From the NCBI RefSeq assembly GCF_000188155.2, contig NZ_KE124774.1, positions 1,494,356-1,558,355 of the forward strand: a DNA stretch of 64,000 nt, read 5' to 3'. The position numbers and the translations under genes are program-made. The notes under the pieces are model-generated. The model worked only from the letters and a program-made list of their open reading frames with translations, did no database searches and was not told the origin of the DNA. Position 1 is the first letter of the stretch; each line of letters opens with the position of its first letter. Of this stretch, positions 14,537 to 28,548 are shown one piece after another. The stretch is from Methylocystis sp. ATCC 49242 (GTDB lineage: Bacteria; Pseudomonadota; Alphaproteobacteria; Rhizobiales; Beijerinckiaceae).

Positions 14537-14626
14537 GGAAGGGTGGCCGAGTGGTTTAAGGCAGCGGTCTTGAAAACCGCCGTGGGGGCAACTCCACCGT
14601 GGGTTCGAATCCCACCTCTTCCGCCA
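14537..14626 (+). tRNA. tRNA-Ser(UGA), integration target
   Basis: A 90-base class II tRNA. Acceptor GGAAGGG pairs with CTCTTCC, the anticodon stem GCGGT/ACCGC encloses loop CTTGAAA with anticodon TGA, and CCA is encoded at 14624-14626. The 3' end from 14613 is the crossover core of the integrated element to its right, which leaves the tRNA intact. Confidence 0.97.
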
Positions 14627-14627
14627 G
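14613..14627 (+). repeat. attL core (15-bp direct repeat)
   Basis: The 15 bases CACCTCTTCCGCCAG at the tRNA 3' end are repeated exactly at 28534-28548 in the same orientation. A tyrosine integrase gene starts about 140 bases to the right. Together these define the left attachment site. Confidence 0.9.
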
Positions 14628-14725
14628 CTAAGCACTCGCCTCCGTTCGCCACCGTTCGTTTTTCCCTGTTTTTCCTGTGTTTTCTTTCCCTGCTCGTCCT
14701 TGCGTGTTCATTTTTGTTCGTTACA

Positions 14726-14758
14726 ATCCGCCGCCAACTGGCGGATCAACTGGCGGAT
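14726..14758 (+). repeat. left GGCGGAT repeats, candidate arm-type sites
   Basis: GGCGGAT occurs at 14740-14746 and 14752-14758 with a 12-bp period, plus an inverted copy at 14726-14732. The same arrangement recurs at the right end (28384-28470). They lie between attL and the integrase gene, where integrase or excisionase arm sites are expected. Confidence 0.5.
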
Positions 14759-14764
14759 CGGACT

Positions 14765-15979
14765 TTGTTCGGCGGAAGACTCAATGCGCGCAAGGTCTCG
14801 ACGGCCGCCCCCGGCGAATATGCCGATGGTGGCGGTTTGTATTTGCGTGTCGCCGAATCGGGATCGCGCACATGGGTTTATCGCTTCTCGTGGCAAGGCC
14901 GGCGTCCAGAAATGGGCCTCGGCGCCGTCGCCGATGGCGTCGGGCTCGCCGATGCACGCGCGGCGCGAGACGAAGCCCGCAAGCTCGTCAGGGCCGGCAT
15001 TAATCCGATCGAGGCGCGTCGCGATGCGAAGCGCGCCGGTGAGAAAAATAAGACGTTCGGCGCCGTCGCAGATGATTTTGTGGCCGCCAAGTCGCCCCAG
15101 TGGCGCAATGAGAAGCACCTGGCGCAATGGGCGATGACGCTGGAAAAATACGCTGCGCCCATTCGCCACAAGCCCGTGGACGAAATCACAACGGAAGACG
15201 TTTTGACCGTCCTCCAGCCCCTATGGGCGACGCGACCGGAAACCGCCTCGCGCCTACGGGGGCGGATCGAATCAGTTCTAGACGCCGCAAAGGCGCTCGG
15301 GTTGCGCGAGGGCGAAAATCCCGCCCGCTGGCGCGGCCATCTTTCTCACCTCCTGCCAAAGCGGCAAAAATTGGCGAGAGGCCATCACGCCGCGATGCCC
15401 TATGCGGAGGTTCCGGCCTTCGTCCGTCGATTGCGTGAGCATCGTTCCGCATCGGCGCTGGCGCTTGAATTTTGCATTTTGACGGCGGCTCGAACGGGAG
15501 AAGTTATCGGCGCCCAATGGGGCGAAATCGACATGGCGGGCAAGGTTTGGACGGTCCCGGCGGCGCGCATGAAGGCCGCACGCCCCCACCGCATACCGCT
15601 TTCCGGCCGGGCGACGGCAATCCTCGAAAAGCTCCACGTGATCCGGTTTTCTGAATATGTCTTTCCGGGCCAGCGGCGCGGCAAACCTCTGTCCAATATG
15701 GCGATGGAAATGGTTTTGCGCCGCATGTGTGTCGAGGACGCGACCGTTCACGGTTTCCGTAGCGCCTTTCGTGACTGGGCCGGGAACGAAACACATTTCC
15801 CCCGCGAGATCGTCGAGGCGGCGCTGGCGCATGTCGTAGGCGACAAGGCCGAGCAAGCCTACCGGCGCGGCGACGCGCTGGAGAAGCGGCGGGCGCTCAT
15901 GGACGCATGGTCCGCGTTCTGCGAGGCGAAGGAAGCGGGCGGCGCGGAAGTGATTGCTTTCAAGAGATCTGGCGAATGA
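14765..15979 (+). CDS. int: tyrosine-type site-specific integrase (P4-like, DUF4102)
   Basis: Catalyses integration at tRNA-Ser and, with an excision factor, excision. About 404 residues. The N-terminal DUF4102 arm-binding segment is visible (YADGGGLYLRV, then EMGLGAV), then a SAM-like core-binding domain, then the catalytic domain with Arg in AARTGEVIGAQW, HGFRSAFRDW with His-x-x-Arg, and the Tyr in KAEQAYRR near the end. No in-frame ATG exists before the conserved region; TTG at 14765 is my choice, TTG at 14714 the alternative. The frame runs back through the tRNA, which is not coding. Confidence 0.93.
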   Translation: MFGGRLNARKVSTAAPGEYADGGGLYLRVAESGSRTWVYRFSWQGRRPEMGLGAVADGVGLADARAARDEARKLVRAGINPIEARRDAKRAGEKNKTFGAVADDFVAAKSPQWRNEKHLAQWAMTLEKYAAPIRHKPVDEITTEDVLTVLQPLWATRPETASRLRGRIESVLDAAKALGLREGENPARWRGHLSHLLPKRQKLARGHHAAMPYAEVPAFVRRLREHRSASALALEFCILTAARTGEVIGAQWGEIDMAGKVWTVPAARMKAARPHRIPLSGRATAILEKLHVIRFSEYVFPGQRRGKPLSNMAMEMVLRRMCVEDATVHGFRSAFRDWAGNETHFPREIVEAALAHVVGDKAEQAYRRGDALEKRRALMDAWSAFCEAKEAGGAEVIAFKRSGE

Positions 15980-16560
15980 GCGATACCGATCACGAATACG
16001 CCGCGACATTCGAGGCGCAAGGGCGGTGCGCCGAAGAAGCTACCGGGCTCCCATTGGTCGCGTGCACGCATTATGCGTTCGGCGAGCACTGCGGCCATCT
16101 CGTTGCCGAGGCGCAACGGATAAAATTTCGAGTGCAACAGGGGGCGCAATCGGAGCGACGGGACGCTGCACGGCGCATCGAAAAACAGGCGGCGGCGCTG
16201 GCGAAGGATTTGAGAGTATTCGTCGATACTTACGGCTACGCGCCGTCTCTTGGCGACTATTCGGCATTGCGCGCGGGCGAAATGCTCGCCGCGCTCGCAA
16301 AAGTCGAAAACCAATTTCGCCAAGAGGCGGAGAGCGCTGCGATTGCAATGTTATCCGATCGGGGATTTGCGCATTTCGCGCGCCAGATATTGGCGAGCGT
16401 TTTTCACACCCGCTTCGGGCAATGCGCGGTTGTTAATTACAATCCATCGACCGAAGTTTATTCGAGTCCATTTCTCAATTTTTGTCGCCACATTTTCGAG
16501 GCGGCAGGCGTCGAAATTTCCGACGCCGCAATTGCTAAGGCATTGCAAAGAAAGAACTAA
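15976..16560 (+). CDS. hypothetical protein coupled to integrase
   Basis: A 194-residue soluble protein I do not recognise. Its ATG overlaps the integrase stop (ATGA), so it is translated with the integrase. A charged, probably coiled helix runs from about 50 to 85 (Arg/Glu/Ala-rich), and the second half has aromatic Phe/His/Tyr-rich segments (FAHFARQILASVFHTRF near 130-146). There are several Cys but no clear metal motif. Confidence 0.7.
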   Translation: MSDTDHEYAATFEAQGRCAEEATGLPLVACTHYAFGEHCGHLVAEAQRIKFRVQQGAQSERRDAARRIEKQAAALAKDLRVFVDTYGYAPSLGDYSALRAGEMLAALAKVENQFRQEAESAAIAMLSDRGFAHFARQILASVFHTRFGQCAVVNYNPSTEVYSSPFLNFCRHIFEAAGVEISDAAIAKALQRKN

Positions 16561-16665
16561 GACAAAACGCCAATTTTCATGGGGCTGTGTCCCTTAGACG
16601 CGACACGAAAAGCGCGCCAGTTTTTGCTCACGTTCGGAATTGTCCGGACGAAAGGAGCAAGAGAA

Positions 16666-16872
16666 ATGGAAAGCGGCGCTTTCACGGTTACCGAATTTTG
16701 CGCTTGGGCAAAGATCGGCAAAACCCTCACTTACGAACTGATCAATTCCGGCGATCTTCCCGTCGTGAAGATCGCGTCGAAAACTCTTATCCGTCGCCAG
16801 GACGCCGAGGCTCTACTCGAGAAGTATTTGAAGAAGGCCGGCGACGCCGATAAGACGGCGAAGGTCGCTTGA
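16666..16872 (+). CDS. AlpA/excisionase-like helix-turn-helix protein
   Basis: A 68-residue DNA-binding protein of the MerR-like AlpA/excisionase group. The helix-turn-helix is FCAWAKIGKTLTYELINSG (about 11-29), followed by the wing PVVKIASKTLIRR and a short Lys-rich helix. The ATG at 16666 has AAAGGAG ten bases upstream. In P4 and PICIs such proteins switch on the integrase or replication operon. Position right after int and before the primase fits that role. Confidence 0.82.
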   Translation: MESGAFTVTEFCAWAKIGKTLTYELINSGDLPVVKIASKTLIRRQDAEALLEKYLKKAGDADKTAKVA

Positions 16873-16874
16873 GA

Positions 16875-17294
16875 ATGGCGCCTCCGAATGCGGAGACGCC
16901 CGCAACCCGGCGGAATGCGGGAAGCGGGCGTCGAAACGAGCTGCTTGGCGGCGGGCTCACGGCATCAAATAGCACTGCGACGCGGAGCCTGCAATCTGTC
17001 GCCGATCGCCGGCTCTACAGGCTCCGCCCCGTCTCGCGCGACCCGGCCGACGGTGAGCTGGTGGACCCCCGATACCCCGCGTGGTGGGCGACGATTGTGC
17101 GGCTTACGGACGGTCAGCGTCGCGTCATCTTCAGGTATGGCCGCTGGTCTGCCGGGCCGCCCCGCGACCGGGACAGCGTGCTTCACGCCATTTGGCTGGA
17201 AGGCGACCGCGCGGCGGCGCGAGCGCCTGACGGTCCAGGATGGCTCTTGGACTTTTTGCGCGGCGTCGTCTTGCCGGCGAGGCCGCGCCGATGA
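16875..17294 (+). CDS. hypothetical protein upstream of primase
   Basis: A 139-residue basic protein with no domain I recognise. The ATG lies two bases after the AlpA-like gene's stop, and its own stop overlaps the primase start (ATGA), which supports it as a real gene in a coupled operon. The N-terminal 40 residues look disordered; the rest contains Trp/Arg-rich segments (RYPAWWATIVRL at about 68-79). Confidence 0.65.
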   Translation: MAPPNAETPATRRNAGSGRRNELLGGGLTASNSTATRSLQSVADRRLYRLRPVSRDPADGELVDPRYPAWWATIVRLTDGQRRVIFRYGRWSAGPPRDRDSVLHAIWLEGDRAAARAPDGPGWLLDFLRGVVLPARPRR

Positions 17295-19417
17295 CGCTTG
17301 CGCCCTCGCCCCCCTGGCGTCGCCAGCCGTCGCCGCCTCCCGCCCCCACTGGCGACGCCCCGTCGCCGCTCGCTGTCGCGCTCGACTACATCGAGCGGGG
17401 CTGGTCGCCGATCCCGATTGGTTTCCGATCGAAAGCGCCATCACTCCCCGGCTGGACGGACCTCCGGATCAGCGCCGACGAGGCGTCACGCTATTTTAAC
17501 GGCGCGCCGGCCAACATCGGAGTTGTATTAGGCCAAAACTCATCGGGCCTGAGCGACGTTGACCTTGACTGTCCCGAGGCCATCGCGGCCGCGCCGTATT
17601 TCCTTCCAAAAACCGCAGCGATCTTCGGCCGCGAGACGGCGCGCGCGTCGCATTGGCTCTATTACACTAACTCAGCTAGTGTAAATCTTTCCGCCAACGT
17701 CTACTTTGACGATCCGATCGCCAAGGAGCGTGGCGCGAAAGCCCGCATTGTCGATTTGCGTCTTGGTCCGAAAGTCCAGACAGTCTTTCCGGGCTCAGCA
17801 CACGAAGACACAAGCGAGCCGATCGCTTGGGAGCCCGGCTGTGACGGCGAGCCGGCGCGCGTCGAATGCGACGACCTTTTTCGTCGCGTCGAGCGCCTCG
17901 CCGCATGCAGCTTGTTGGCGCGGCATTGGCCCGCGCATGGCGCGCGCCATGATGCGCGCCTCGCCGTCGCTGGCGTCCTAGTCCGCGCCGGATTTTCGGA
18001 GAGCGAGAGCAAACTTTTTGCCGAGGCGCTCGCCCGCGCTGTCGGCGACGAAGATGCGAGAGACTTCGCGGCGGCGATCCGAAGCACGTATGCGCGGGCG
18101 AGCTCGGGCGAAAAATTCTCGGGTTTGCCGAGGGCGTGTGACGTCTTCGGCGATGCGATCGGGCGCGCCGTGGCGGATTGGCTTCGCCTTGACGAGAGCG
18201 GCGCCGATTTTGGGCAATCTCTTCTCGGGCCGAAACCGCGCGCGACGATCGTCGAGAACGGCGTGGTGGCCGACGCCGAGACGGGCGAAATTCTGCGGCA
18301 ACCGGCGGGAGAGAGTGGACGCATCGGCCGCCTCGGCATTCTCACAAGCGCGCAATTCGTGGCCGGCTTCACGCCGCCAGACTACTTCCTCGACGGCGTT
18401 TGCCAACGCGGCTTCCTCTATTCACTCACAGCCGCCACGGGCGCCGGAAAGACCGCCGTCGCGCTCACCATTGCGGCGACGGCCGGGGGCGGCGGGGGAA
18501 CGCTCGGCGGCCGTGAGGTGATGGGCGGAAAAGTCCTATTCCTTGCCGGAGAAAACCCGGACGATGCGCGAATGCGCTGGATCGCGATGGCGCATCATTT
18601 CGACTTCGATATCGCCACGATTGGCGTCCGCTTCCGCCCGACCGCTTTCGATATCTCGAAATCGCTTCCAGACCTTCGGGCCGAGGCAGAGGCCGCCGGC
18701 GAGTTTTCGCTGATTATCTGCGACACGTCGGCGGCGTTCTTTCAGGGCGACGACGAAAATTCAAACACACAGCTTGGCGCCTATGCGCGCACACAGTTGA
18801 GAAAGCTGACCGAACTTCCCGGCCGGCCGTGCGTCATCGTTCTTTGTCATCCGACCAAAAACGCATCGGCTGACAACCTCCTGCCGCGGGGAGGCGGCGC
18901 GTTTCTCGCCGAAGTGGACGGCAACCTCACGGCGGCAAACGCGGGCGGCGTCGTGACGTTGCACTGGCAAGGCAAGTTCCGTGGCCCCGACTTCGAGCCG
19001 CTCCGCTTCGCGCTCGAAAAGGTCTCGACACCGAGCCTTGTGGATTCGCGCGGCCGGGAAATTCCATCGGTCATCGCCCGGCCGCTCGACATGCGCGAGG
19101 CAGGCGCCCTGGCCGCTGACGAGCGGCGTGAAGAGGACATTCTCCTTGAGCTAATGCTTGACCACGAGGCCGCGTCGATTGCCGAGCTGGCGAGGTTGGC
19201 CGGATGGGCTACCGGCGACGGCGACACGCCTCACAAGTCAAAGGTCGCGCGTATCCTTCAATCTTTCGCGGCGGAACGACCGCCCCTCGCAAAGAAAATT
19301 CGCGCGCATTGGACACTGACCGGTAACGGCCAAGAAGAAGCCGCGCGCGTCCGCGATGAGCGAAGGAAGGCCGAGCAAAACGCCGCCCGATTTTCTCGAT
19401 TGGGAGAGCCCGAATGA
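17291..19417 (+). CDS. bifunctional primase-polymerase/RepA-like helicase
   Basis: The likely replication initiator of the element, 708 residues. The N-terminal half is a prim-pol (AEP) domain: ALDYIERGWSPIPIG near 30-44, NIGVVLGQ near 75, and DVDLDCPEA near 88-96 with the metal-binding Asp residues. The second half is a RecA/RepA-type ATPase with Walker A GATGAGKT at about 380-388, GENPDD near 420, Walker B LIICDTSAAF near 475 and ALEKV near the end, then a winged-helix-like C-terminus. Such fusions prime and unwind at iteron origins in satellites and plasmids. The iteron array starts 24 bases after its stop. Confidence 0.88.
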   Translation: MTLAPSPPWRRQPSPPPAPTGDAPSPLAVALDYIERGWSPIPIGFRSKAPSLPGWTDLRISADEASRYFNGAPANIGVVLGQNSSGLSDVDLDCPEAIAAAPYFLPKTAAIFGRETARASHWLYYTNSASVNLSANVYFDDPIAKERGAKARIVDLRLGPKVQTVFPGSAHEDTSEPIAWEPGCDGEPARVECDDLFRRVERLAACSLLARHWPAHGARHDARLAVAGVLVRAGFSESESKLFAEALARAVGDEDARDFAAAIRSTYARASSGEKFSGLPRACDVFGDAIGRAVADWLRLDESGADFGQSLLGPKPRATIVENGVVADAETGEILRQPAGESGRIGRLGILTSAQFVAGFTPPDYFLDGVCQRGFLYSLTAATGAGKTAVALTIAATAGGGGGTLGGREVMGGKVLFLAGENPDDARMRWIAMAHHFDFDIATIGVRFRPTAFDISKSLPDLRAEAEAAGEFSLIICDTSAAFFQGDDENSNTQLGAYARTQLRKLTELPGRPCVIVLCHPTKNASADNLLPRGGGAFLAEVDGNLTAANAGGVVTLHWQGKFRGPDFEPLRFALEKVSTPSLVDSRGREIPSVIARPLDMREAGALAADERREEDILLELMLDHEAASIAELARLAGWATGDGDTPHKSKVARILQSFAAERPPLAKKIRAHWTLTGNGQEEAARVRDERRKAEQNAARFSRLGEPE

Positions 19418-19722: not shown

Positions 19723-20004
19723 ATGAGCTGCAAAGCTGAAGTTACAGCCTTCGTCCACTCCCCCGCACGCATCGAGTCCCGTTTCGACGGACGCCCATTC
19801 GCCAAACTCGCAGCGCGTGAGAAGCACGGGCGCGCCTGGAACGTGGTCGCGGTCGAAGACGCGGTGCGCGCCGCCGCCATGGCCCTGCGCCCCGGCCAGC
19901 GCATTCGCGTCGTCGGCGTCCCGAGCTTCCGTATCGACGACAGCTCTCATAGTCCGCGAATGAGGCTCGACCTTCGCGCCGACAAGATTGAGGTGCTCGG
20001 ATGA
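19723..20004 (+). CDS. SSB-like OB-fold protein (putative)
   Basis: A 93-residue protein whose layout resembles a short OB-fold, possibly a single-stranded-DNA-binding protein: a beta-rich N-terminus, AWNVVAVEDAVRAAAMAL (about 46-63), then GQRIRVVGV and a final strand LRADKIEVLG, matching the strand-helix-strand order of SSB. ATG at 19723 follows AAGGAGCCGCCG. Location just after the iteron array suits replication. No direct family match can be shown by eye. Confidence 0.5.
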   Translation: MSCKAEVTAFVHSPARIESRFDGRPFAKLAAREKHGRAWNVVAVEDAVRAAAMALRPGQRIRVVGVPSFRIDDSSHSPRMRLDLRADKIEVLG

Positions 20005-20234
20005 CCCGCCGGCCGCCGCTCACGCGCGACCTCTTGTCGAGCCTCGGCTTCCGCCTCCGCGTTATCGAGACGATCGGCTCGCGCCTCCCGCCGGACGCCC
20101 CGCCCGAAGCTGTCGCCGCCGCCGCCCGATCGCTCGCGCGCGAGCTGCTCGCCGACTTCGACCGGCCGGACGGCGACACCCTTCGCGAACTTCAACAGGC
20201 GGTCATGACCGTCGTCGAGGAGGAACTGAAATGA
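20001..20234 (+). CDS. small hypothetical protein
   Basis: A 77-residue helical protein, Arg/Leu/Ala-rich, starting in an ATGA overlap with the previous gene and ending in an ATGA overlap with the next. The overlaps on both sides are the main evidence that it is coding. No domain recognised. Confidence 0.65.
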   Translation: MTRRPPLTRDLLSSLGFRLRVIETIGSRLPPDAPPEAVAAAARSLARELLADFDRPDGDTLRELQQAVMTVVEEELK

Positions 20235-20455
20235 TCCTTCACGAACTCGCCCGGCGCGTGGAGCGCCTCTCCCCGTCTCGCCGCGATCCGCATTCCTTTT
20301 TCGAGGAGCGCGCCGAGATCGCTCACGCCCTGCGCCAGCTCGCCAGAAACGACCCGCCCATGCGCGAAACGCGAGCGCCAGCTACCACGCTAGCGCACAC
20401 ATCGAAAAGCGCGCCAGCGGGCTTCTGTGGCCCGCAGAGAGGAAAGGCACGATGA
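20231..20455 (+). CDS. small hypothetical protein
   Basis: A 74-residue basic protein, helical in the first 45 residues (ELARRVERLSPSRRDP) and disordered after. Both ends overlap neighbouring genes by four bases. Function unknown; it belongs to the string of coupled early-type genes downstream of the iterons. Confidence 0.6.
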   Translation: MILHELARRVERLSPSRRDPHSFFEERAEIAHALRQLARNDPPMRETRAPATTLAHTSKSAPAGFCGPQRGKAR

Positions 20456-20775
20456 CCGCCGATGAACTTCGAGAGCTGGCCCGCCTCGCCGCGCAGCTCG
20501 CCGACGAACTCGAAGCGAGGGAAAAGTCTACCGCGAAGCCGGATCGCACGCTCTCAACTAACGAGGCCTCGAGGATCGCTAAACGATCGTTCTCATCACT
20601 CTACCGCGACGCACGTCAGCACGGTTTCGGATGGAAACTACCGACCGGTAGTTGGCAGTTTTCGGAACGAGGCTTGCGTGCGTTTCTTAGAAAAAATCCG
20701 GCGTTGGCGAATTTGGCGAATTTGGCGAGCGCGACGGGGTTTTCTTGGCGATGGAGTCGGCGCAAGTTGATGTGA
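20452..20775 (+). CDS. putative helix-turn-helix protein
   Basis: A 107-residue protein with a charged helix at about 1-25, then a likely HTH of the excisionase type: TNEASRIAKRSFSSLYRDAR (about 39-58) followed by a wing with WKLPTGSWQF. Ser/Thr and Arg in the recognition helix and the wing strand are consistent with DNA binding. Starts in an ATGA overlap. A regulator or excision factor is possible; not proven. Confidence 0.55.
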   Translation: MTADELRELARLAAQLADELEAREKSTAKPDRTLSTNEASRIAKRSFSSLYRDARQHGFGWKLPTGSWQFSERGLRAFLRKNPALANLANLASATGFSWRWSRRKLM

Positions 20776-20790: not shown

Positions 20791-21813
20791 ATGAACTTTC
20801 TCAACCCCTTCCGCACCGAGTCCGCCGAAGTCCGCGAGCCCGGCAAGGGCTCCAATCCGACATTCGTCGCCGATCCGATCGACCGCCTTCCTCCTCCCGC
20901 CGCAGACAAGCTCCGATCAATCCGGCGTGAGGCGTCCGACGCGCACGCGGTGTTGCGACCTTTGCAAGACGAGCTGACCGAATTGCGCGAAAAGCGCCAG
21001 CGCTCTGAAGTGTGGATCGGCTCTTACATTAACGGGCGCCATGATGGTCGCGCACATCGCGAAGACGACCCCGCGATCGTCCGCGAACGCGAAAAAATCG
21101 CGAAACTGACAGCGGAAATCGATCGCTTGCAGGCCGCGTATGACGAGCGCGCGGCGAAATGGCGTCACCTCGCCGCCGTGCGCGAGACCCTCGAAAGTTA
21201 TATCAAGCGCCTGAGCGACCCGGTCGAGGCAGCTCCGCCTGTTGCCGCGACGCTCGGCAAGGGCGAGACTCATCAGCAGGCGGTCGCGCGCGTGCGCAAG
21301 CAATTGGAAAAATTGCGCGAGGACGCCCAGGCGATCGAAGACGCGCCGTATCACTCCAGCCACGCAAAAAAGCTCGCGCGCGAAAAAATCGAAGCGCTCG
21401 CCGAGCGGGGCCGGCCGAATGTTTTGGTCTCAATTGAGGCCGGGCGCGATTTCGAGTTTGCATCCAAAATCGAAGGCGGCGGGGCCGTCGCGATCGCGGG
21501 TGAGATGCACGCGCTCCCGTTCAACCGAGCCGTTGACATCGAGGCGACTTTCGCTTGGCTCCATCGTGACGCGCTCATCGCCGCGATTGAACGCGAGATT
21601 GACGAAAATTCGGACGACGCGAGTGCGCTTTCCGACGAAACCCGTCAGAAGAAAAGCCTGCAAATCCGCGCGCAAATTCTCGAAACCGAGAGGCAGGAAG
21701 AAGCGATTGTCTGCATGGCCGCCGAGTCCGGCCTCGTCATCGCCCGCCGCGCCGACGCCGATCCTCGCGCGGTTCTTGGATTGAGCGACGCCGCCCCGGC
21801 GCCGCGAAACTAA
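20791..21813 (+). CDS. coiled-coil hypothetical protein
   Basis: A 340-residue protein that I cannot place in a family. Two long Glu/Lys/Arg-rich heptad stretches, about 42-75 and 90-130, predict coiled coils; a third helical block lies at about 160-200. The middle (about 208-260) is more globular, with EGGGAVAIAGEMHALPFNRA. No membrane segment or enzyme motif. In length and position it could be a scaffold, capsid-interfering or DNA-packaging accessory protein, but nothing shows this directly. Confidence 0.65.
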   Translation: MNFLNPFRTESAEVREPGKGSNPTFVADPIDRLPPPAADKLRSIRREASDAHAVLRPLQDELTELREKRQRSEVWIGSYINGRHDGRAHREDDPAIVREREKIAKLTAEIDRLQAAYDERAAKWRHLAAVRETLESYIKRLSDPVEAAPPVAATLGKGETHQQAVARVRKQLEKLREDAQAIEDAPYHSSHAKKLAREKIEALAERGRPNVLVSIEAGRDFEFASKIEGGGAVAIAGEMHALPFNRAVDIEATFAWLHRDALIAAIEREIDENSDDASALSDETRQKKSLQIRAQILETERQEEAIVCMAAESGLVIARRADADPRAVLGLSDAAPAPRN

Positions 21814-21823: not shown

Positions 21824-22192
21824 ATGAGCGCGAAGGAAAGCCAAAACGTATCGTTCTATGCTGGCGACCGCGTCACCCTTCGCTTTCCCCTTGCCGACGC
21901 CACAGCGCTCGCCCCTGCGGCTCTCACAAGCCCGGTCGGGCATTTCAGGATGGCGGGGACGCTTGCGGGCGTTCCTGTCCTGTCGAAATCGTCTCCAGCT
22001 TCCGGCGCGTCCGTCCTGCAAGAGAACATCGGCGACGTGTCGTGGTGGGTGCTTTATGTCTATTTTGAAGAAGAAGACACGAAGACGATCCCCGGCCGAT
22101 ATTTCTATCAGATCAGGGTTGTTCCGACTGAAGGACCGTCCGTGGTCGCCGCTGGAATGATCAACATCAAGCAACTGATCAAGACACACTAG
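21824..22192 (+). CDS. phage-like beta-rich protein, unknown function
   Basis: A 122-residue protein dominated by beta strands (VTLRFPLADATAL, WWVLYVYFEEEDTK, GRYFYQIRVVPTEG). Phages carry similar small immunoglobulin-like or tail-associated proteins ahead of packaging or head genes, but I recognise no specific family. ATG at 21824 is ten bases after the previous stop with GGGCGAGGCG upstream. Confidence 0.55.
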   Translation: MSAKESQNVSFYAGDRVTLRFPLADATALAPAALTSPVGHFRMAGTLAGVPVLSKSSPASGASVLQENIGDVSWWVLYVYFEEEDTKTIPGRYFYQIRVVPTEGPSVVAAGMINIKQLIKTH

Positions 22193-22202: not shown

Positions 22203-22553
22203 ATGAACCTAAATCCCGAAGCGTTTGCCAAAGAGCCGCCGGATTATGACCCGGCAATCTCGCCCATGTCGAAGCGGGGCGAATACGAAGCGGCGCTCGC
22301 CGCTGGGCGCGAGCCCGTCGTTCCGTCCGGTGACTTCTGGCACTGGTTAGGAGAGACATATCCGGCGCCGAAGCAAGCCGCCGTCAAAGCTCCCGATGCG
22401 TCGGCGCGCGCGTTATGGGCGAAGGCCGTCGCCGCGCAGAACGCCATGACGGCGCAGACGCAGGGCGAGACGTCAAAGCCCGCCGCGGCTAACAACCACG
22501 GGTGGGACGAGGTCGTCGCCAAGATCAACGCGGAAGCGCGAGGAAGGCGCTAA
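22203..22553 (+). CDS. hypothetical protein
   Basis: A 116-residue Ala/Pro-rich protein, mostly helical at the C-terminus (HGWDEVVAKINAEARGRR) with a Pro-rich, Trp-containing middle. ATG at 22203 has AGGAGATACCTA upstream, a strong ribosome binding site. Last gene of the run that starts with the primase; a 320-base gap follows. No family recognised. Confidence 0.6.
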   Translation: MNLNPEAFAKEPPDYDPAISPMSKRGEYEAALAAGREPVVPSGDFWHWLGETYPAPKQAAVKAPDASARALWAKAVAAQNAMTAQTQGETSKPAAANNHGWDEVVAKINAEARGRR

Positions 22554-22875: not shown

Positions 22876-23400
22876 ATGACGACACGAAAAAGAGGGGCGA
22901 CGGGACCGGCGGAACGGGCCGTTTCGACGATCGACGACCGCACGCTCGTGAGCGTCCAGAGCGCCGCCGATTTGCTTGGCGTGACCCCCCGCTGGGTGCG
23001 CCAGCTCTGCGCAGATGGCCGCGTTGCGAAGGCGGCTCCCGGCGTCGTCCCTCTCGCCGAAGTTATCCGCGCCTATATCGCGTCTCTCAAAGACGAGTCG
23101 AAGAAGACGACGAAATCGGAAGCGGCCGCCGAAGTTCAACGAGCCCGCGCCGAAGAAATCCGCCTCCGCGTCGCCATCAAACAAGGCGAGCTCATCCCTA
23201 TGACGGAAATCGAGCCTGTCTTTTCCGACATCCTTGGAGAGTTGCGGTCGCGCCTTGCCGGCGTGCCGGCGGCGTGCACACGCGACCTGGCCTTGCGCGA
23301 GACGATCGAGGCGCGGCTTGAAGAGGCTCTCGACGAGGCACGCGGCGATTTTGACAGGCGCGCCGAAGAGCTGGCCAGCCCCGGAGGGAGCAAGAAATGA
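22876..23400 (+). CDS. Nu1/TerS-like terminase small subunit-type protein
   Basis: A 174-residue protein. The N-terminal winged HTH is of the Nu1/MerR type: SVQSAADLLGVTPRWVRQLC (about 26-45) followed by a wing and the helix VPLAEVIRAYI. A long Glu/Arg/Lys-rich helix (about 70-105, SEAAAEVQRARAEEIRLRV) leads to MTEIEPVFSDILGELRSRLAGVP, the segment typical of phage lambda Nu1 and related small terminases. No large terminase gene lies in the element. In satellites, an own TerS redirects a helper's packaging motor; that role is inference. Confidence 0.75.
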   Translation: MTTRKRGATGPAERAVSTIDDRTLVSVQSAADLLGVTPRWVRQLCADGRVAKAAPGVVPLAEVIRAYIASLKDESKKTTKSEAAAEVQRARAEEIRLRVAIKQGELIPMTEIEPVFSDILGELRSRLAGVPAACTRDLALRETIEARLEEALDEARGDFDRRAEELASPGGSKK

Positions 23401-23606
23401 ACAGTCAGGTTCCCCCCGGCATGACGACCAAAGCCGACGTGCGCGCGCGGCTAGATGCGTATCTTGAAGACGTGTCGGCCTCGATCCTGGCGTCGCTTGA
23501 CGTGACGGAGATGACCGAGGGCGAGCGGGCTGAGGCTGAGGCGGGCGTCGGGCGCGCGATCGCGGCCGCGCGCCTGAACTTCAACCGCAAGATCGCGAAC
23601 GGGTGA
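23397..23606 (+). CDS. small hypothetical protein after TerS-like gene
   Basis: A 69-residue acidic helical protein whose ATG overlaps the preceding stop by four bases. Sequence is Ala/Glu/Arg-rich (DVSASILASLDVTEMTEG). Coupled translation suggests a partner of the TerS-like protein. Unknown family. Confidence 0.6.
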   Translation: MNSQVPPGMTTKADVRARLDAYLEDVSASILASLDVTEMTEGERAEAEAGVGRAIAAARLNFNRKIANG

Positions 23607-23614: not shown

Positions 23615-23947
23615 CTACGCGACCTCTTCGAGGCGCTCGGCGATGAACTGGTTTATGCTCTCGCCGGCCTTTGCCGCCAGCTCCGCAACCCGCTTGTGAA
23701 GCTCGGGGGTGATGCGAATGGAAAGCGTGCCGGAATAAGGCCTTTCGGGTTCAACGCCGCGCTCTTTGCACCAATCGCGGTAATCTTCGATCGTGTCTGC
23801 GAATGCCTGGCGCAGTTCGGCAAGCGTCTCGCCCTCGAATGTGAGCATTGCACGGGCGTTGATGACGCGGCCGTGCATTATGCCGGCGTCTTCGTCGATT
23901 TCGACTGTCGCCAGATATCCGTCATGCGTCATCGTCGTCATGGCCAT
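23615..23947 (-). CDS. hicB: HicB-family antitoxin
   Basis: A 110-residue antitoxin. The N-terminal HicB domain (TMTHDGYLATVEIDEDAG onward, with FADTIEDYRDWCKERG near 52-67) resembles a degenerate RNase-H-like fold, and the C-terminus is a ribbon-helix-helix DNA-binding unit (SGTLSIRITPELHKRVAELA near 76-95). It binds HicA and should repress the operon through the palindrome at 24200-24220. It overlaps the upstream hicA gene by ten bases. Confidence 0.9.
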   Translation of the reverse strand: MAMTTMTHDGYLATVEIDEDAGIMHGRVINARAMLTFEGETLAELRQAFADTIEDYRDWCKERGVEPERPYSGTLSIRITPELHKRVAELAAKAGESINQFIAERLEEVA

Positions 23948-24192
23948 ACACCCGCCATCTTCAGAAACTCTCGGACTGAAGCGACGGCGCCCTTATTGGT
24001 TTCCGGCTTCGGGTGCGGGCGATGAAAAACCGCCTCAACGCCGTTTAGCAGGAACCGAACGCGGGAGCCGCGTCCTTCCGAACGCTCTGCGCCGAGCGCG
24101 ACCAAGAGGCTTTCGATTTCCGTCCATCGAATGTCCGACGGGACGGGGCGGGCGAATATCGCCTCAATGGTGCGCCGGTGCTTGGCGTTCAT
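23938..24192 (-). CDS. hicA: HicA-family mRNA interferase toxin
   Basis: An 84-residue toxin with the dsRBD-like HicA fold, longer than the minimal form. WTEIESLLVALGAERSEGRGSRV lies at about 23-45, and the catalytic His is in AVFHRPHP (about 54-61). HicA cleaves mRNA and tmRNA when free of HicB. It is the first gene of a toxin-first hicAB operon; on an integrated element this normally acts as an addiction or anti-phage module. Confidence 0.88.
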   Translation of the reverse strand: MNAKHRRTIEAIFARPVPSDIRWTEIESLLVALGAERSEGRGSRVRFLLNGVEAVFHRPHPKPETNKGAVASVREFLKMAGVWP

Positions 24193-24220: not shown

Positions 24221-24247
24221 TACGGAAGTGAACGGAAGTGAACGTGA

Positions 24248-24598
24248 GCGGAAAAAGCCACCCTCGGCCTGATTGCGTCCCATGTCGGAGCGGTTCTCCG
24301 CTGCGGCGACTTGGCTATTCGCGAGACGGGTGGCATCCCTGTCGTCAACTCCCGCGACGTGGCGGAGAAGTTCGGGAAGCGGCATAGCGACGTTTTGCGC
24401 GATGTTGATACGATTTTAACGAACGCAGATTTGCGTTCGTCGAATTGGTTCCGAGAGACAGATTATCTCGACGTCAAGGGCGAAAGTCGCCGTTCATTCG
24501 ACCTGACACGCCAGGGGGTCACCTTGCTCGTCATGGGCAGGACTGGCAAAGAGCGCGAGAACTGCGCTGATTTTTGCTTTAGGGATTCCGGCGGATGA
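24248..24598 (+). pseudogene. Rha-family phage regulator fragment
   Basis: An open frame beginning after a stop at 24245 encodes a Rha-type N-terminal domain: VNSRDVAEKFGKRHSDVLRD, then NWFRETDYLDVKGES and FDLTRQGVTLLVMG, all characteristic of this phage regulatory family. There is no ATG before the conserved region (TTG at 24311 is possible) and the sequence leaves the family pattern after VMG, so the C-terminal part is lost, probably by a frameshift near 24540. The 3' end overlaps a minus-strand gene. Confidence 0.65.
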
Positions 24599-25072
24599 GA
24601 GTTGCGCAACCAAAGCCTCGCGCTGCTCTTTTTCGAATTGAATTTTATACTCTGGATCAACGGCGGCGACAGCGCGCTTTGCATCATTGATGCACGCCTG
24701 ACGACGCGCAGGGACAGATTTACCTTTCGAGTTCAGTTGCATCGCGCGCGATGGGTTAATCCGTTCTGGCTTTTCGTCCAGACGTAATCTCTTCAGCGCG
24801 GAACTAACCGGGCAGGAAGCATCGTAGAGGTGCAGGGGCGTTCGCCCCTTTCCGCCGGCGAGCGCGTATTGATTTGATTTGCGGCATATCGCGTGCATCG
24901 CCCGCAAGACGGAGTTTGTTTCCGCCCGTGTCGGAGGACGCTCGAATAGCTGAAATCCGTAGCATTCCGCTGCTAGTTGAGCCGCGGGAAAAAAGACGCA
25001 GCCATGCGTTTTCTGCGCGATCTCGATTTGCCCTAGAATACAATTCATTACGCGCCCGTGACCCTTGCTCAT
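24494..25072 (-). CDS. hypothetical protein
   Basis: A 192-residue protein with no recognised domain. The N-terminal half has alternating hydrophobic helices (CVFFPAAQLAAECYGFQLF at about 25-43), the C-terminal half is Lys/Arg/Glu-rich and helical. Base composition of the region is lower in GC than the host genes. The 3' end overlaps the Rha-like fragment. The ribosome binding site is weak, so confidence is moderate. Confidence 0.5.
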   Translation of the reverse strand: MSKGHGRVMNCILGQIEIAQKTHGCVFFPAAQLAAECYGFQLFERPPTRAETNSVLRAMHAICRKSNQYALAGGKGRTPLHLYDASCPVSSALKRLRLDEKPERINPSRAMQLNSKGKSVPARRQACINDAKRAVAAVDPEYKIQFEKEQREALVAQLSSAGIPKAKISAVLALFASPAHDEQGDPLACQVE

Positions 25073-25133: not shown

Positions 25134-25358
25134 TTAAGCCTTCTTCAGCCGCACGCCCGGCCCGCCGCCATTTTCGGCAATGAACTCGACCCCCGCCGCC
25201 TCGAGGGCGGCGCGGATGGCGGCGACAGTGCGGGGCTTCAGGTCTTCCCCGGCTTCGAGGCGGGAGATCGTGTCTGTGGAAACGCCGGAAATCTTTGCCA
25301 AGTCTCGCACGCCGATCCCGAGGGCGACCCTGGCCATCTTGCATTGAACCGCGAGCAT
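25134..25358 (-). CDS. Xre/Cro-type helix-turn-helix repressor
   Basis: A 74-residue protein that is one HTH_3 domain: LGIGVRDLAKISGVSTDTISRLEAG (about 13-37) has the canonical helix-turn-helix, followed by TVAAIRAALEAAGVEF. Short Xre proteins like this are common phage or plasmid repressors. It is transcribed away from the second replication module, and two direct CGTTCCGATT repeats sit just upstream in the shared promoter region. Confidence 0.85.
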   Translation of the reverse strand: MLAVQCKMARVALGIGVRDLAKISGVSTDTISRLEAGEDLKPRTVAAIRAALEAAGVEFIAENGGGPGVRLKKA

Positions 25359-25368
25359 TTCTAGACAC

Positions 25369-25399
25369 CGTTCCGATTTTTCTTGACTACGTTCCGATT
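25369..25399. promoter_or_regulatory. direct repeats between Xre gene and replication module
   Basis: CGTTCCGATT occurs at 25369-25378 and 25390-25399, exactly 21 bases apart, two helical turns. They lie ten bases upstream of the Xre start in the divergent promoter region. They contain the GGAACG core of the 19441-19680 array in its complementary orientation. Repressor operators are the simplest reading. Confidence 0.5.
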
Positions 25400-25487
25400 C
25401 ATTGCTTATCGTATCCGCGTTCTGATTTCTGAACAAGGTAAAGCAACGCGGAAACCACCATTTCCGCGAACGCCGGAGGCTTGCCCA

Positions 25488-25604
25488 ATGGACCCCGCTT
25501 TCTTCTTCGCCCTCGCCCCCTTCGCCGCCTTGTGGCTGGCCTTTGTCGCCCATGAGGCGAGCAAGGCCGTTTCCGCGATCCGGGGAGGCCGCCGCCATGG
25601 CTGA
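25488..25604 (+). CDS. small membrane protein
   Basis: A 38-residue peptide with one hydrophobic segment (AFFFALAPFAALWLAFVA, about 4-21) and a basic C-terminus. CGGAGG lies eight bases upstream of the ATG. It overlaps the next gene. Likely coding; role unknown. Confidence 0.5.
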   Translation: MDPAFFFALAPFAALWLAFVAHEASKAVSAIRGGRRHG

Positions 25605-25914
25605 CCCGATCTTTGCGGCCATCGCCGAGTGGGAGCGCCTCGAAGCGCTTCACATTGAAGCAATCAATGCGGCGGACGCAATCGACGACGAAGACAGCGC
25701 CGAATTTGCCGCGGCGGACCATGCGCAAGACGTGGCCTGTTCGGCCGTCGCCGATCACGAGCGGAGGATTCTCGACATGCGCCCGCAGACGGTCGCGGGG
25801 GCGCTGGCGCTCCTGCGCTTCATTGCGACGATCGAGCAGGACTACCTCGGCAATGAGTGGAAGAAGGGCGACGCCATTCGCGCCTGCGCCGATCTGATCG
25901 AGGCGGCGCCATGA
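25597..25914 (+). CDS. hypothetical protein of second replication module
   Basis: A 105-residue acidic, helical protein (IAEWERLEALHIEAINAADAI at the start; FIATIEQDYLGNEWKKGD near 73-90). GGGGAGGCCGCC precedes the ATG. Its stop overlaps the next start (ATGA). Similar small acidic genes precede RepA-like ATPases in alphaproteobacterial phages, but I cannot name a family. Confidence 0.6.
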   Translation: MADPIFAAIAEWERLEALHIEAINAADAIDDEDSAEFAAADHAQDVACSAVADHERRILDMRPQTVAGALALLRFIATIEQDYLGNEWKKGDAIRACADLIEAAP

Positions 25915-26051
25915 GCCAGCGCCTATTTGTCGAACTGGACGGCAACCTCCGCCACCGCCTCGAAGCCGTGGTCGATATGCTGATTGACCTTCTCGACCAG
26001 TTGGACGGCGACCCAGACCTGGAAGACGACGACGCGGAGGAAGTCGCTTGA
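25911..26051 (+). CDS. small acidic protein
   Basis: A 46-residue peptide, strongly acidic at the C-terminus (DGDPDLEDDDAEE). Both ends overlap neighbouring genes by four bases (ATGA and TTGA), the main support for it. Acidic small proteins can mimic DNA, but nothing else points that way. Confidence 0.5.
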   Translation: MSQRLFVELDGNLRHRLEAVVDMLIDLLDQLDGDPDLEDDDAEEVA

Positions 26052-27166
26052 CCGTTGACCCCGCAATTCTCGCGGCCGCCGCCGCCGAATATCACGAGCA
26101 ACGCGGCGACCGGTCGCGCATCGTCGTCGGGCTTCCGGCCGCGCCACAAGTCGAACTGGTCCGCGCCGACGCAATCGAGCCAGAGCCCATTCGTTGGCTC
26201 TGGCTCGGCTGGATGGCGAAGGGCAAGCTGCACATCATCGGCGGCTCGCCCGGCGCCGGAAAGACGACCATCTGCCTGCGGATGGGGGCGACTGTTTCGA
26301 AGGGCGGCGCATGGCCCGACGGCTCACACGCGCCCATTGGCAACGTCGTCATCTGGTCCGGCGAGGATGACCCCGCCGACACTCTTGTTCCCCGCCTGAT
26401 CGCCTCGGGCGCGGATATGCGGCGCATCTTCTTCGTCGGCGGCGTCTACAGCGGCGATATCGCCCGCGCCTTCGACCCTTCCCGCGACATTGGCCCCTTG
26501 CAGGCGGCGATCGAACGGGCGGGAGGCGCGGCGTTGATAATCGTGGACCCTATCGTGAACGCCGTGACCGGCGACAGCCACAAGAATACGGAAACCCGGC
26601 GCGGCCTTCAGCCTCTCGTGGACCTCGCGGCGGCGACGGACGCGGCCCTGATCGGGGTGACGCATGTCGCGAAAGGCTCGGCGGGACGGGAGCCCCTGGA
26701 GCGCCTCTCCGGCTCGCTGGCCTTCGGCGCCGTGGCGCGAATTGTCCTGATGGCGGCGAAGAAGGCAGAGGACGACGGGCCAGCGCCGCGCATCGTCTGT
26801 CGCGTGAAATCGAACATCGGTCCCGACGGCAATGGCTTCACCTATGAAATATGCCAGACGGGCATTGTCGGGCATCCGGGCGTCGAAACGTCCTATGTCG
26901 AATGGGGCGAGGCGGTGAAGGGAAGCCCGCGCGAGCTGCTTGGCGAGCCCGACGGCGACAAGGGGCGCGCCGAAAGCGACGCCGAGACGTTCCTGAAGGC
27001 GTTGCTTGCCGACGGGCCGATGGCGGCGAAGGACGTGAAGGAAGCCGCCGAGGCGAATGGGCTGGCGTGGCGGACAGTGAGGCGGGCGCAGAAGGCGCTT
27101 GGCGTGAAGGTGGCCCGCTCTGGATTCGGACCGGAAGGGCAATGGACGTGGAGCCTTCAACCATAG
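26048..27166 (+). CDS. RepA-like AAA ATPase (replicative helicase)
   Basis: A 372-residue hexameric-helicase-type ATPase of the RepA/AAA_25 group. Walker A GGSPGAGKTT lies at about 65-74, then VVIWSGEDDPADTLVPRL near 100-117, Walker B ALIIVDPIVNAV near 161-172, and GVTHVAKG near 201-208. A winged-helix-like C-terminal region (PMAAKDVKEAAEANG) could bind the iterons 3' of the gene. The start is a TTG overlapping the upstream stop (TTGA). It lacks the primase domain of the first initiator, so it may rely on that protein or the host for priming. Confidence 0.85.
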   Translation: MTVDPAILAAAAAEYHEQRGDRSRIVVGLPAAPQVELVRADAIEPEPIRWLWLGWMAKGKLHIIGGSPGAGKTTICLRMGATVSKGGAWPDGSHAPIGNVVIWSGEDDPADTLVPRLIASGADMRRIFFVGGVYSGDIARAFDPSRDIGPLQAAIERAGGAALIIVDPIVNAVTGDSHKNTETRRGLQPLVDLAAATDAALIGVTHVAKGSAGREPLERLSGSLAFGAVARIVLMAAKKAEDDGPAPRIVCRVKSNIGPDGNGFTYEICQTGIVGHPGVETSYVEWGEAVKGSPRELLGEPDGDKGRAESDAETFLKALLADGPMAAKDVKEAAEANGLAWRTVRRAQKALGVKVARSGFGPEGQWTWSLQP

Positions 27167-27281: not shown

Positions 27282-27312
27282 GGCCGGAGGCTCAACCAGA
27301 GGACAATAGACG

Positions 27313-27462
27313 ATGACCATTCACGATAAGACCGTGCTCGAGCTGGCCGCGTTATTGTGGCGAATCCGGCTCGCCGGATGGGCACTTAAAGTCGGGACGC
27401 GCACCATATCCGCAGGCCGGGCGCTCGTGGCGCTCGGGGAGCGGCTCACCCCGAGGACGTGA
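27313..27462 (+). CDS. small hypothetical protein
   Basis: A 49-residue amphipathic helical peptide (LELAALLWRIRLAGWALKVG near 9-28). The next ATG is four bases after its stop. No clear ribosome binding site for this gene. Tentative. Confidence 0.4.
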   Translation: MTIHDKTVLELAALLWRIRLAGWALKVGTRTISAGRALVALGERLTPRT

Positions 27463-27465
27463 GAC

Positions 27466-27744
27466 ATGGCGACGCCCGCTGGCGGATATGACCGGGCCGC
27501 GATCCTCCGCGACGCTCACAAGCGCTACAGGGACGGCAAGCGCCTCGGGCTCGGGTGGAGCTGGTCGCAATGCCTCTCGACAGCATGGGCGGCGGCAAAG
27601 CAACGGCGGGCCCTCGCCGAAGACGCGAAGAAAAGGCAGGGACAGCGGAATGACCTGAAGCCGCATAACATTCGGGCAGATCTGCCCAGAAGTTCAGAGG
27701 CGGACCGTCCACGCGAACAGGCTGCGAAGGTCGTCGCCACCTGA
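27466..27744 (+). CDS. hypothetical protein, 3' part in tandem repeat
   Basis: A 92-residue protein. The first 45 residues (YDRAAILRDAHKRYRDGK, then GWSWSQCLSTAWAAAKQ) look like an independent small helical domain. The last 45 fall in the first unit of the repeat region that follows, which resembles a piece of a replication or ParB-linked protein (EDAKKRQ, then REQAAKVV). So this ORF may be a fusion created by the duplications. Confidence 0.5.
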   Translation: MATPAGGYDRAAILRDAHKRYRDGKRLGLGWSWSQCLSTAWAAAKQRRALAEDAKKRQGQRNDLKPHNIRADLPRSSEADRPREQAAKVVAT

Positions 27745-28145
27745 GCGCCGGCCAGCTTGCCCTCATCGCCCTCGATCTCGAAAAACTCTTCGCCGAAGAC
27801 GCGAAGAAAAGGCAGGTCGAAGCCGGAAAGCAATTCGGGCGAGGGCAAGAAAAGCTTGTCGCAGACCTGCGACAAGCTAAGGACGGCAAGTCCACGCGAA
27901 CAGGCTGCGAAGGTCGTCGCCACCTGAGCGCCGGCCAGCTTGCCCTCATCGCCCTCGATCTCGAAAAACTCTTCGCCAAAGACGCGAAGAAAAGGCAGGG
28001 ACAGCGGAATGACCTGAAGTCGCAGAACATTCCGGCAGACTTGCCGGAATGTCGCCAACGTGAGTCCCGCGAACAGGCTGCGAAGGTCGTCGGCGCTTCC
28101 GGGCGCGGCGTGAGTTGCCTTGCGGATTGCGGCTTGCCTGTTTAG
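27616..28145 (+). pseudogene. decayed tandem duplication of a gene fragment with three hairpins
   Basis: A 110-bp segment at 27707-27816 is repeated at 27890-27999 with one mismatch, and a 46-bp segment at 27616-27660 recurs at 27974-28019. Translated, the units read GQLALIALDLEKLFAEDAKK, then a variable part, then REQAAKVVG, like the ARDQAAK region of phage/plasmid proteins with ParB-like context. Frameshifts and missing starts mark decay. Each variable part holds its own palindrome: 27674-27687, 27853-27878 (12-bp arms) and 28027-28052 (11-bp arms). Confidence 0.65.
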
Positions 28146-28188
28146 GTTGAGCAAACGCCGGCGTCGTCCATTCGCCGGAACACGAGAG

Positions 28189-28224
28189 CCCCGCGACCAC
28201 GGATGAACTGGCGCGGGGTTTTTT
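28189..28224 (+). terminator. rho-independent terminator
   Basis: CCCCGCG (28189-28195) pairs with CGCGGGG (28212-28218), followed by six T. It ends transcription of the second replication module and repeat region, and excludes an upstream start for the GcrA-like gene. Confidence 0.75.
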
Positions 28225-28241
28225 CTATCGAGGGCCTCGAT

Positions 28242-28493
28242 ATGATCGGCGTTCCCTTCCTCGATCTGAAGCACGGCCAGTGCAAGTTCGCCCTGGGGAG
28301 CATTGACGATCCGCCGGCGCTCTTCTGTGGCGAGGCTTCCGCCACGGGCTCGCCCTACTGCGCGGCGCATCATGCCATCTGCTATCCGCCCAGGGCGAAG
28401 AATGAGAGGGGCGGCTTGTTCGCCATCGTTCGCCGACAATCGCGACAAAATGGCGGATTGGATGGCGGATTGGCTCCGCTGCAACATTCATAA
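28242..28493 (+). CDS. GcrA-like cell-cycle regulator domain protein
   Basis: An 83-residue protein matching the C-terminal part of GcrA: LDLKHGQCKFALGS (about 7-20), then LFCGEASATGSPYCAAHH near 28-45, the Cys/His pattern by which GcrA contacts sigma-70. The N-terminal DNA-binding HTH of full GcrA (about 45 residues) is absent. The ATG at 28242 lies after the terminator hairpin; the frame is open to 28203. A truncated GcrA on an element could act on host methylation-dependent transcription; this is inference. Confidence 0.7.
   Translation: MIGVPFLDLKHGQCKFALGSIDDPPALFCGEASATGSPYCAAHHAICYPPRAKNERGGLFAIVRRQSRQNGGLDGGLAPLQHS
28384..28470 (+). repeat. right GGCGGAT repeats, candidate arm-type sites
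   Basis: GGCGGAT at 28452-28458 and 28464-28470, 12 bp apart, with an inverted copy at 28384-28390. This repeats the arrangement found beside attL (14726-14758). The sites lie 60-150 bases inside attR. Confidence 0.5.
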
Positions 28494-28533
28494 ATTCTTT
28501 GAATACAAAGATTTATGCACAGAAAATGGCGGA

Positions 28534-28548
28534 CACCTCTTCCGCCAG
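28534..28548 (+). repeat. attR core (15-bp direct repeat)
   Basis: Exact copy of the tRNA-Ser 3' end at 14613-14627, in the same orientation. Flanking bases differ on both sides, so the identity is limited to the crossover core. Marks the right end of the integrated element. Confidence 0.88.

Follow-up and report, generated by a model that had tools for sequence, protein, structure and literature searches.

A putative phage satellite at tRNA-Ser in Methylocystis sp. ATCC 49242 and its relatives with small terminase, scaffold, and tape measure genes

The 64,000-nucleotide stretch of DNA analysed here (the window; positions 1,494,356 to 1,558,355 of contig NZ_KE124774.1) belongs to the 4.7-Mb, six-contig genome of Methylocystis sp. 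ATCC 49242 and contains an integrated element, W, that begins at a tRNA-Ser(TGA) gene. Related copies A, B, C, and D lie elsewhere in the same genome (Table 1), and other genomes, loci, and records that were compared carry codes beginning with G or L, L161–L164 being viral contigs. Based on comparison with these relatives, W very probably belongs to a family of phage satellites of approximately 14 kb, five members of which reside in this genome. A preliminary description, made from the window alone, had proposed a phage satellite of an alphaproteobacterium. That proposal gains from the five related copies, their narrow size, two circular-looking relatives, and a small terminase (TerS) that is encoded without a large terminase (TerL) and is related to phage TerS.

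The 15-mer CACCTCTTCCGCCAG, comprising the final 14 bases of the tRNA-Ser gene and the next base, is exact at both borders of W, as previously described, and the distance between its copies (13,921 bp) agrees with the 13.9 kb given before. No third match occurs in the window at up to two mismatches, and at least two such matches were found in 3 of 100 shuffled sequences. Because the 15-mer alone is modest evidence, a second border sign was sought. The tandem motif TGGCGGAT-N4-TGGCGGAT has exactly two matches in the window, one approximately 110 bp in from the left border of W and the other approximately 65 bp in from the right border, and none across 100 shuffles; it is a stronger border sign than the 15-mer. 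Copies B, C, and D and the element G002a each have their own second exact repeat at the corresponding places near both ends, and similar arm-like motifs were seen in other sister elements by eye; the tandem motif and the second repeats of the siblings resemble the arm-type sites of an integrase. At other integration sites, sister elements are flanked by repeats of 14–62 bp, the 14-bp one belonging to G160. Overall, these sequence signs are consistent with site-specific integration of W by its own recombinase, a P4-type integrase that lies next to the left attachment (att) copy, as had been described.

Table 1. Features of W (window positions) and of its four sibling copies (genome positions). 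HTH, helix-turn-helix; IS, insertion sequence; SSB, single-stranded DNA-binding protein
Feature	Coordinates	Strand	Match or remark
tRNA-Ser(TGA)	14537..14626	+	integration target of W; compared across genus loci
att core, left copy, 15 bp	14613..14627	+	CACCTCTTCCGCCAG
P4-type tyrosine integrase	14714..15979	+	Phage_int_M 7e-30; start codon uncertain, open frame extends back into tRNA
tandem arm-type site (putative), left	14739..14758	+	TGGCGGAT x2
orf2, no assigned function	15976..16560	+	copy A counterpart 73% identical
AlpA-like HTH_17 regulator	16579..16872	+	E 1.9e-5, under cut-off
orf4, no assigned function	16869..17294	+	matched in A, B, C
Prim-Pol primase + AAA_25	17240..19417	+	Prim-Pol 6e-11, AAA_25 2e-18
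SSB/OB-fold-like protein, weak	19723..20004	+	PF00436 E 0.094; 78-90% identical in A-D
o7, small protein, no assigned function	20001..20234	+	
o8, HTH protein (weak match)	20452..20775	+	
o9, helical hallmark protein	20791..21813	+	
o10, no assigned function	21824..22192	+	89% identical in A and D
o11, no assigned function	22203..22553	+	occupies place of stand-alone scaffold domain of A-D
Nu1-type small terminase (TerS), without TerL	22876..23400	+	phrog_57 6e-26
o13	23397..23606	+	place of L161's 84-aa gene between TerS and tape measure (position only)
HicB antitoxin	23615..23947	-	8e-21
HicA toxin	23938..24192	-	1e-11
Rha-type regulator, N-terminal fragment	24311..24598	+	1.9e-17
o16, no assigned function	24494..25072	-	
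Cro/CI-type HTH regulator	25134..25622	-	conserved in satellite family
o18, no assigned function	25543..25914	+	
o18b, no assigned function	25857..26051	+	identical in B and C
RepA-type AAA_25 ATPase	26048..27166	+	2e-34; 98.9-99.7% identical to A-D
o20	27466..27744	+	matched in several relatives
direct repeats, 110 nt and 73 nt	27614..28045	.	pattern varies between siblings
o21, GcrA-C-terminus-like	28203..28493	+	1.3e-8
tandem arm-type site (putative), right	28451..28470	+	TGGCGGAT x2
att core, right copy	28534..28548	+	CACCTCTTCCGCCAG
copy A	C6 ~330-345 kb		17-bp direct repeats; no tRNA there by ARAGORN
copy B	~1.317-1.332 Mb		tRNA-Val gac; 55-bp direct repeats
copy C	~3.663-3.678 Mb		tRNA-Val cac; 53-bp direct repeats
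copy D	~396-411 kb		tRNA-Asn; 51-bp direct repeats; 14,794 bp with IS

The open reading frames (ORFs) of W were scanned with PHROGs (23 ORFs) and Pfam (22 ORFs), leaving out the minus-strand ORF 27525–28487 and shorter overlapping ORFs. The primase-helicase, the Nu1-like TerS, the HicAB pair, and the second, RepA-like ATPase of the preliminary description all matched their families clearly, while the AlpA-like regulator and the SSB-like protein matched the expected families more weakly than stated. The Rha-type fragment and the GcrA-like C-terminus were absent from that description. As it had claimed, no large terminase, portal, capsid, tail, lysis, or conjugation family scored above the cut-off among the scanned ORFs; neither a full set of virion genes nor the TerL, portal, capsid, and tail tube of a complete prophage was found there, and no relaxase was found. 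Sub-threshold matches running counter to the absence of tail and conjugation genes were those of o9 to a tail assembly chaperone (E 0.052) and of HicB to NikA-like (0.054) and Mob_Pre (0.17) families. Regarding defence genes, a PADLOC scan of 10 W proteins gave only weak matches (an HTH protein and an ATPase). The predicted model of o9 had a mean pLDDT (predicted local distance difference test) of 84, and no PDB or viral structure matched its fold at E 0.001 or better. The 110-nt and 73-nt direct repeats sit downstream of RepA, with an inverted copy beside the HTH gene in some siblings, and could be candidate origin, packaging, or recombination sites.

The TerS of W matched three further loci in its own genome at 83–84% identity, and o9 matched these and a fourth. 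In favour of a satellite family, the siblings are flanked by direct repeats, encode their own integrases, and lie mostly at tRNA 3' ends. The integrase of copy A is of the W type (66% identical) and those of B, C, and D are of other types: with the W integrase as query, B gave no match and C and D gave weak ones. The integrase of G002a shares 59% identity with that of B and 40% with that of C. RepA is 98.9–100% identical across all five copies, whereas the left modules are far less alike, which suggests that modules have been exchanged among the copies. Copy D contains a polynucleotide-kinase-like gene and a transposase (the latter by eye), and neither TerS nor a tape measure was found in it. 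Transposase-like ORFs sharing an N-terminal sequence were seen by eye at 58682–60094 of the window and in copy D (L145+L146, 23033–24709).

The stretch from TerS to the HTH repressor, which in W contains HicAB, the Rha fragment, and o16, encodes in copies A, B, and C a protein of 863–874 amino acids (aa) that is a tape measure by its family matches (PF10145 at 2.8e-24 in A and 8.4e-24 in B; phrog_28 at 8e-36 in A), that of C being 93% identical to that of A. A 124-aa protein lies ahead of TerS in A–C, is also present in D, and resembles the C-terminal part of phage head proteases; the copy A protein matched phrog_17040 (3.7e-10), phrog_53 (3e-7), and the scaffolding family phrog_8399 (0.014). 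In lambda-type phages, the C-terminal part of the head protease acts as a scaffold, and we refer to the 124-aa protein as the scaffold domain. W, in which no scaffold and no tape measure were found, might have lost these genes or never had them. The ratios of nonsynonymous to synonymous substitution rates (dN/dS, Nei-Gojobori method) were 0.12–0.15 for the tape measure among A, B, and C, 0.16–0.37 for the scaffold domain among A–D, 0.19–0.44 for o9, and 0.27–0.31 for TerS between W and A–C. Tape measure (A–C), scaffold (A–D), and TerS (W and A–C) are intact and under purifying selection, that is, they look like working genes. The TerS proteins of W and copy A have 18 differing residues among the 60 of the DNA-binding part (21–80) and 2 among the 60 that follow (81–140; Fisher p 0.0001; boundaries chosen by eye), and third-position differences number 15 and 12, respectively (p 0.66). 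The diverged DNA-binding part suggests that the choice of packaging site differs between these siblings.

The preliminary description had named structural or TerL genes in close relatives as a finding that would speak against a satellite. Structural genes are indeed present, as tape measure and scaffold in A–C and scaffold in D, but the TerL, portal, capsid, gpD, sheath, and tube proteins of two complete phages had no match in the loci of W and A–D (tblastn, E 1e-4), where family scans of A–D covered part of their ORFs. The same functions were absent from the 14 scanned ORFs of L161 (some small or overlapping ORFs lay outside the scan), whose only named functions were protease, scaffold, TerS, tape measure, integrase, and regulators. 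Because none of these six phage functions was found there, the tape measure and scaffold are better read as hijacking tools than as the wreck of a prophage; W would carry one gene for hijacking packaging (TerS), and A–C would add two for assembly.

Relatives were found well beyond this genome. The o9 protein was present in 12 of 347 genomes searched in the family (own genome included) and in 4 viral contigs, and a tblastn search of 50,697 phage records at E 0.01 gave no hit; the tape measure was present in 6 of 39 genus genomes, counting the own genome and prophages. ORFs beyond A–D were read in G001, G002a, G019, G225, G160, G061, G037c41, G037c64, G037c19 (a 5.6-kb contig), G008, G010 (two regions), and L161–L164; G017, G149, G328, and G002b contributed protein matches only. 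Tape measure families were matched in L161, L163, L164, G061, G008, G010a, and G037c19; large proteins of G001 and G160 had no PHROG match and were 23% and 28% identical to a prophage tape measure over 406 and 262 residues, respectively. A head protease occurred in L161, L163, L164, G061, and G225, a protease/head domain in G037c64 and G010a, and a scaffold domain in L161, G001, G019, and, by similarity, G037c41. A capsid was found in L163, a portal in L164 and by similarity in L162, and a baseplate hub in G225 (8e-89) and G061 (by 43% identity). Directly ahead of the tape measure, G008, G061, and G160 encode a tail protein (phrog_166) that we read as a chaperone. TerS was found in G061, G001, G002a, G010a, and L161. 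In L162, a 27,950-bp viral contig, the o9 relative lies approximately 8 kb from the portal match and a protease/capsid-like ORF (by eye), among other phage-like genes; this may be a capsid-forming satellite, a prophage with a satellite beside it, or a different thing.

Ten elements had lengths of 13,293–14,888 bp (mean 14,257), namely W, A, B, C, G001, G002a, G019, and G225, delimited by repeats, and G061 and L161, delimited as contigs; D, G002b (16,340 bp, with a broken o9), and G160 (12,695 bp, at tRNA-Ala) were omitted. The G061 contig has identical ends of 95 bp, giving a putative circle of 14,843 bp, and the L161 record has identical ends of 123 bp, giving a putative circle of 13,541 bp; circular DNA should produce overlaps of this kind. 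A search of these two circular contigs for a tRNA-like attP by T-arm pattern found none in L161 and one unconvincing match in G061.

If W and its siblings were prophage remnants, with TerS, scaffold, and tape measure left over after the loss of most late genes, the phage homologues of all three genes would be accounted for, as would the Rha fragment in W, the transposase-like insertion in D (by eye), and the broken o9 in G002b. Purifying selection on the three genes speaks against this, as do repeats at both ends of many copies, a narrow size despite differing tRNAs and integrases, relatives with identical contig ends, and the lack of o9 in the phage records, and we consider it very unlikely. 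An integrative plasmid-like element built on Prim-Pol and RepA, moving by transformation, conjugal mobilisation in trans, or generalized transduction with TerS and the tail genes as passengers, would fit with RepA as the best conserved protein of the five copies and with the sub-threshold HicB matches. It is at odds with the lack of a relaxase or conjugation family above the cut-off in the 22 ORFs scanned with Pfam, with a TerS whose DNA-binding part differs between siblings, and with varied head and tail genes in many relatives, and we regard it as very improbable.

For a phage satellite, a candidate type of helper is represented by two complete phages, the 61.6-kb virus record G351, which has the same metagenome number as L161, and the G037:C18 prophage. 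Both hold TerS beside a GpA-type large terminase (PF05876 at G037:C18; the G351 counterpart is 76% identical), together with portal, protease with a scaffold end, capsid, and a long tail set. The sheath, tube, gpU, and most tail names of both, and hence the contractile tail, were assigned by eye, as were the portal, capsid, and gpD names in G351, for which phrog-named relatives in satellites are the only support. Satellite TerS proteins are 47–49% identical to the TerS adjoining TerL in the two phages, the satellite scaffold domain shares 49–50% identity with the head protease of G351 in its C-terminal part (47–50% across both phages), satellite tape measures are 43–58% identical over parts to that of G351, and the L163 capsid is 69% identical to the G351 capsid. 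When 16 tape measures (9 satellite and 7 phage) were placed in a tree, eight of the nine satellite proteins fell into two satellite-only groups (support 89/90 and 99/99), with G061 apart; the long branches of G061 and G037:C18 are unsafe. The TerS tree was poorly resolved, with 2 of 11 inner branches well supported. On these trees, the satellite TerS proteins or tape measures may or may not go back to one ancestor.

It is also conceivable that W belongs to a satellite family whose tape measure and scaffold are decoys that poison helper assembly rather than parts of satellite particles. Satellite-borne defence is known to target tail assembly (PMC12987554 and PMC11364771), and tape measure lengths show no uniform shortening (615–874 aa in nine satellites versus 697–743 aa in seven phages, with the 1,020-aa tape measure of L164 left out); a uniform shortening of tails by satellite tape measures was accordingly rejected. 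On the other side, purifying selection acts on the tape measure, which is long and intact, and a passage of PMC12987554 reports the detection of the PLE11 tape measure in satellite particles (PLE, phage-inducible chromosomal island-like element). Decoys thus appear rather unlikely to us.

Several observations weigh against the view that W belongs to a family of phage satellites, the first being that its support consists of sequence comparison, with no induction, packaging, or transfer observed. The satellite tape measures are not uniformly shorter than those of phages, and the DNA-binding part is the better conserved part when the TerS of L161 or G037c41 is compared with those of the two phages, making the fast change specific to W and A. 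No tape measure was found in G037c41 or G019, which adds to the genes missing from W and D, and the satellites do not form one clade in either tree. Distant relatives with a capsid (L163) or portal (L164, L162) may include cut-down prophages, and identical contig ends, as in G061 and L161, can also be assembly artefacts, the virus records giving neither end class nor completeness. No match to the lambda-type large terminase (PF05876) was found in the genome of W, which therefore houses no matching helper; the prophage seen in this genome is Mu-like by eye (L114/L115, G000:C6 3,396,001–3,436,000), and its tape measure is 51–59% identical over parts to that of copy A. Finally, a search for the empty site, as the preliminary description had proposed, yielded none that could be drawn, since the window's DNA to the right of the tRNA had no counterpart at any of 29 tRNA-Ser loci in the genus.

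In the common satellite scheme, excision and replication are followed by TerS-steered packaging into a helper head. Applied to the proposed satellite W, infection by a helper with a lambda-type head and a contractile tail would lead to excision by the integrase and the AlpA-like factor, replication by Prim-Pol and RepA, and packaging by the large terminase of the helper under the direction of the satellite's own TerS. Fuller members (A–C and L161) might use their own scaffold domain to obtain a head sized for 14 kb and, like PLEs, their own tape measure to build chimeric tails, and W would borrow these proteins from the helper or from its siblings; HicAB may serve maintenance or defence. A further idea, which we put forward tentatively and regard as doubtful, is that the family swaps TerS, scaffold, and tape measure one by one, resulting in particles chimeric in head and tail, with the five copies sharing modules and W and D living as second-order parasites on the helper and on A–C.

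To the right of tRNA-Ser, only 6 pairs of the 29 genus loci (one of which consists of Ns) share DNA, none with the window, and the left neighbour genes are mostly shared. The window gene at 60706 lies 24–68 kb from the tRNA where both are on one contig stretch and far away otherwise. In G001, the same tRNA is occupied by a related element of 13,435 bp, and tRNA-Ser(TGA) looks like an integration hot spot. By eye, the DNA to the right of W (28549–37000) is mobile-looking, with a serine recombinase (30118–31608), two IS21-like genes (33417–35794), and an IS5-like fragment (36298–36930), and is followed by a hydrogenase-like large subunit and an oxidoreductase-like gene (39996–42913) in a lower-GC stretch. 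The host genome has two PF02461 (methane/ammonia monooxygenase) loci, which together with its placement in Hyphomicrobiales indicates an alphaproteobacterial methanotroph.

Among known satellites, phage-inducible chromosomal islands (PICIs) of the Staphylococcus aureus pathogenicity island (SaPI) type have att repeats, an integrase, an AlpA-like regulator, a primase, TerS without TerL, and a similar size. W likewise has att repeats and these gene functions, a likeness at the level of function, and its family differs from this type in having tail-type structural genes. A PICI or P4-type label finds no support, as the integrase, AlpA-like regulator, and primase are common to many satellites and o9 is unmatched in the phage collection. 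With P4-type satellites, W shares the integrase type, the primase-helicase, and the AlpA-like regulator, but it has its own TerS, whereas P4 packaging relies on the P2 terminase, as stated in part of PMC10690885. No match named as a P4 sid, psu, or delta family was found among the W ORFs with Pfam and PHROGs, whose holding of those models was unchecked. Capsid-forming PICIs (cf-PICIs) have an entire head and packaging module on board, according to the same part of PMC10690885; among the relatives, L163 likewise has a capsid, L164 a portal, and some others head proteases, whereas the set of capsid, portal, protease, and two terminase subunits that defines cf-PICIs was not found in W, and no capsid, portal, or TerL was found in W or A–D. 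The G351 and G037:C18 phages share related TerS, scaffold domain, and tape measure with the satellites, and G351 a related capsid with L163, but the phages hold the head set and a long set of tail genes.

In the openly licensed literature, judged by titles and the starts of abstracts, we found no paper on the W family or on phage satellites in methanotrophs or Rhizobiales; satellites with TerS and head remodelling are known, as are, since 2026, chimeric tails in PLEs. For one helper–satellite pair, the tape measure is assigned to the helper in the part of PMC4936722 considered here. The PLEs of Vibrio cholerae are the closest parallel for tails: a passage of PMC12987554 (March 2026) describes chimeric tails with the satellite tape measure incorporated into particles, and notes the absence of reports of a tape measure gene in any other satellite, while listing putative ones in PLE-like elements and cf-PICIs. 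PLEs encode a tape measure, a tail assembly chaperone, and a baseplate hub (same passage), and in the W family the corresponding genes are spread over different members, with the tape measure in A–C and others, the chaperone-like protein in G008, G061, and G160, and the hub in G225 and G061. The tape measure and chaperone are conserved across PLE variants, and W and D have no tape measure that we could find; host class and helper type are also different. Beyond PLEs, as judged from their descriptions rather than their sequences, the W family has a Nu1-type TerS, a stand-alone scaffold domain, head proteases with phage homologues, and o9, and it looks like a separate family. If the proposed reading of W is true, a phage parasite would be placed in a methane-oxidising bacterium, and tail piracy by tape measure, hub, and chaperone-like protein would extend beyond the one lineage of PLEs and could accompany piracy of head and packaging by scaffold and TerS; the five siblings of a single genome, which differ in just such genes, offer a natural gene-by-gene comparison.

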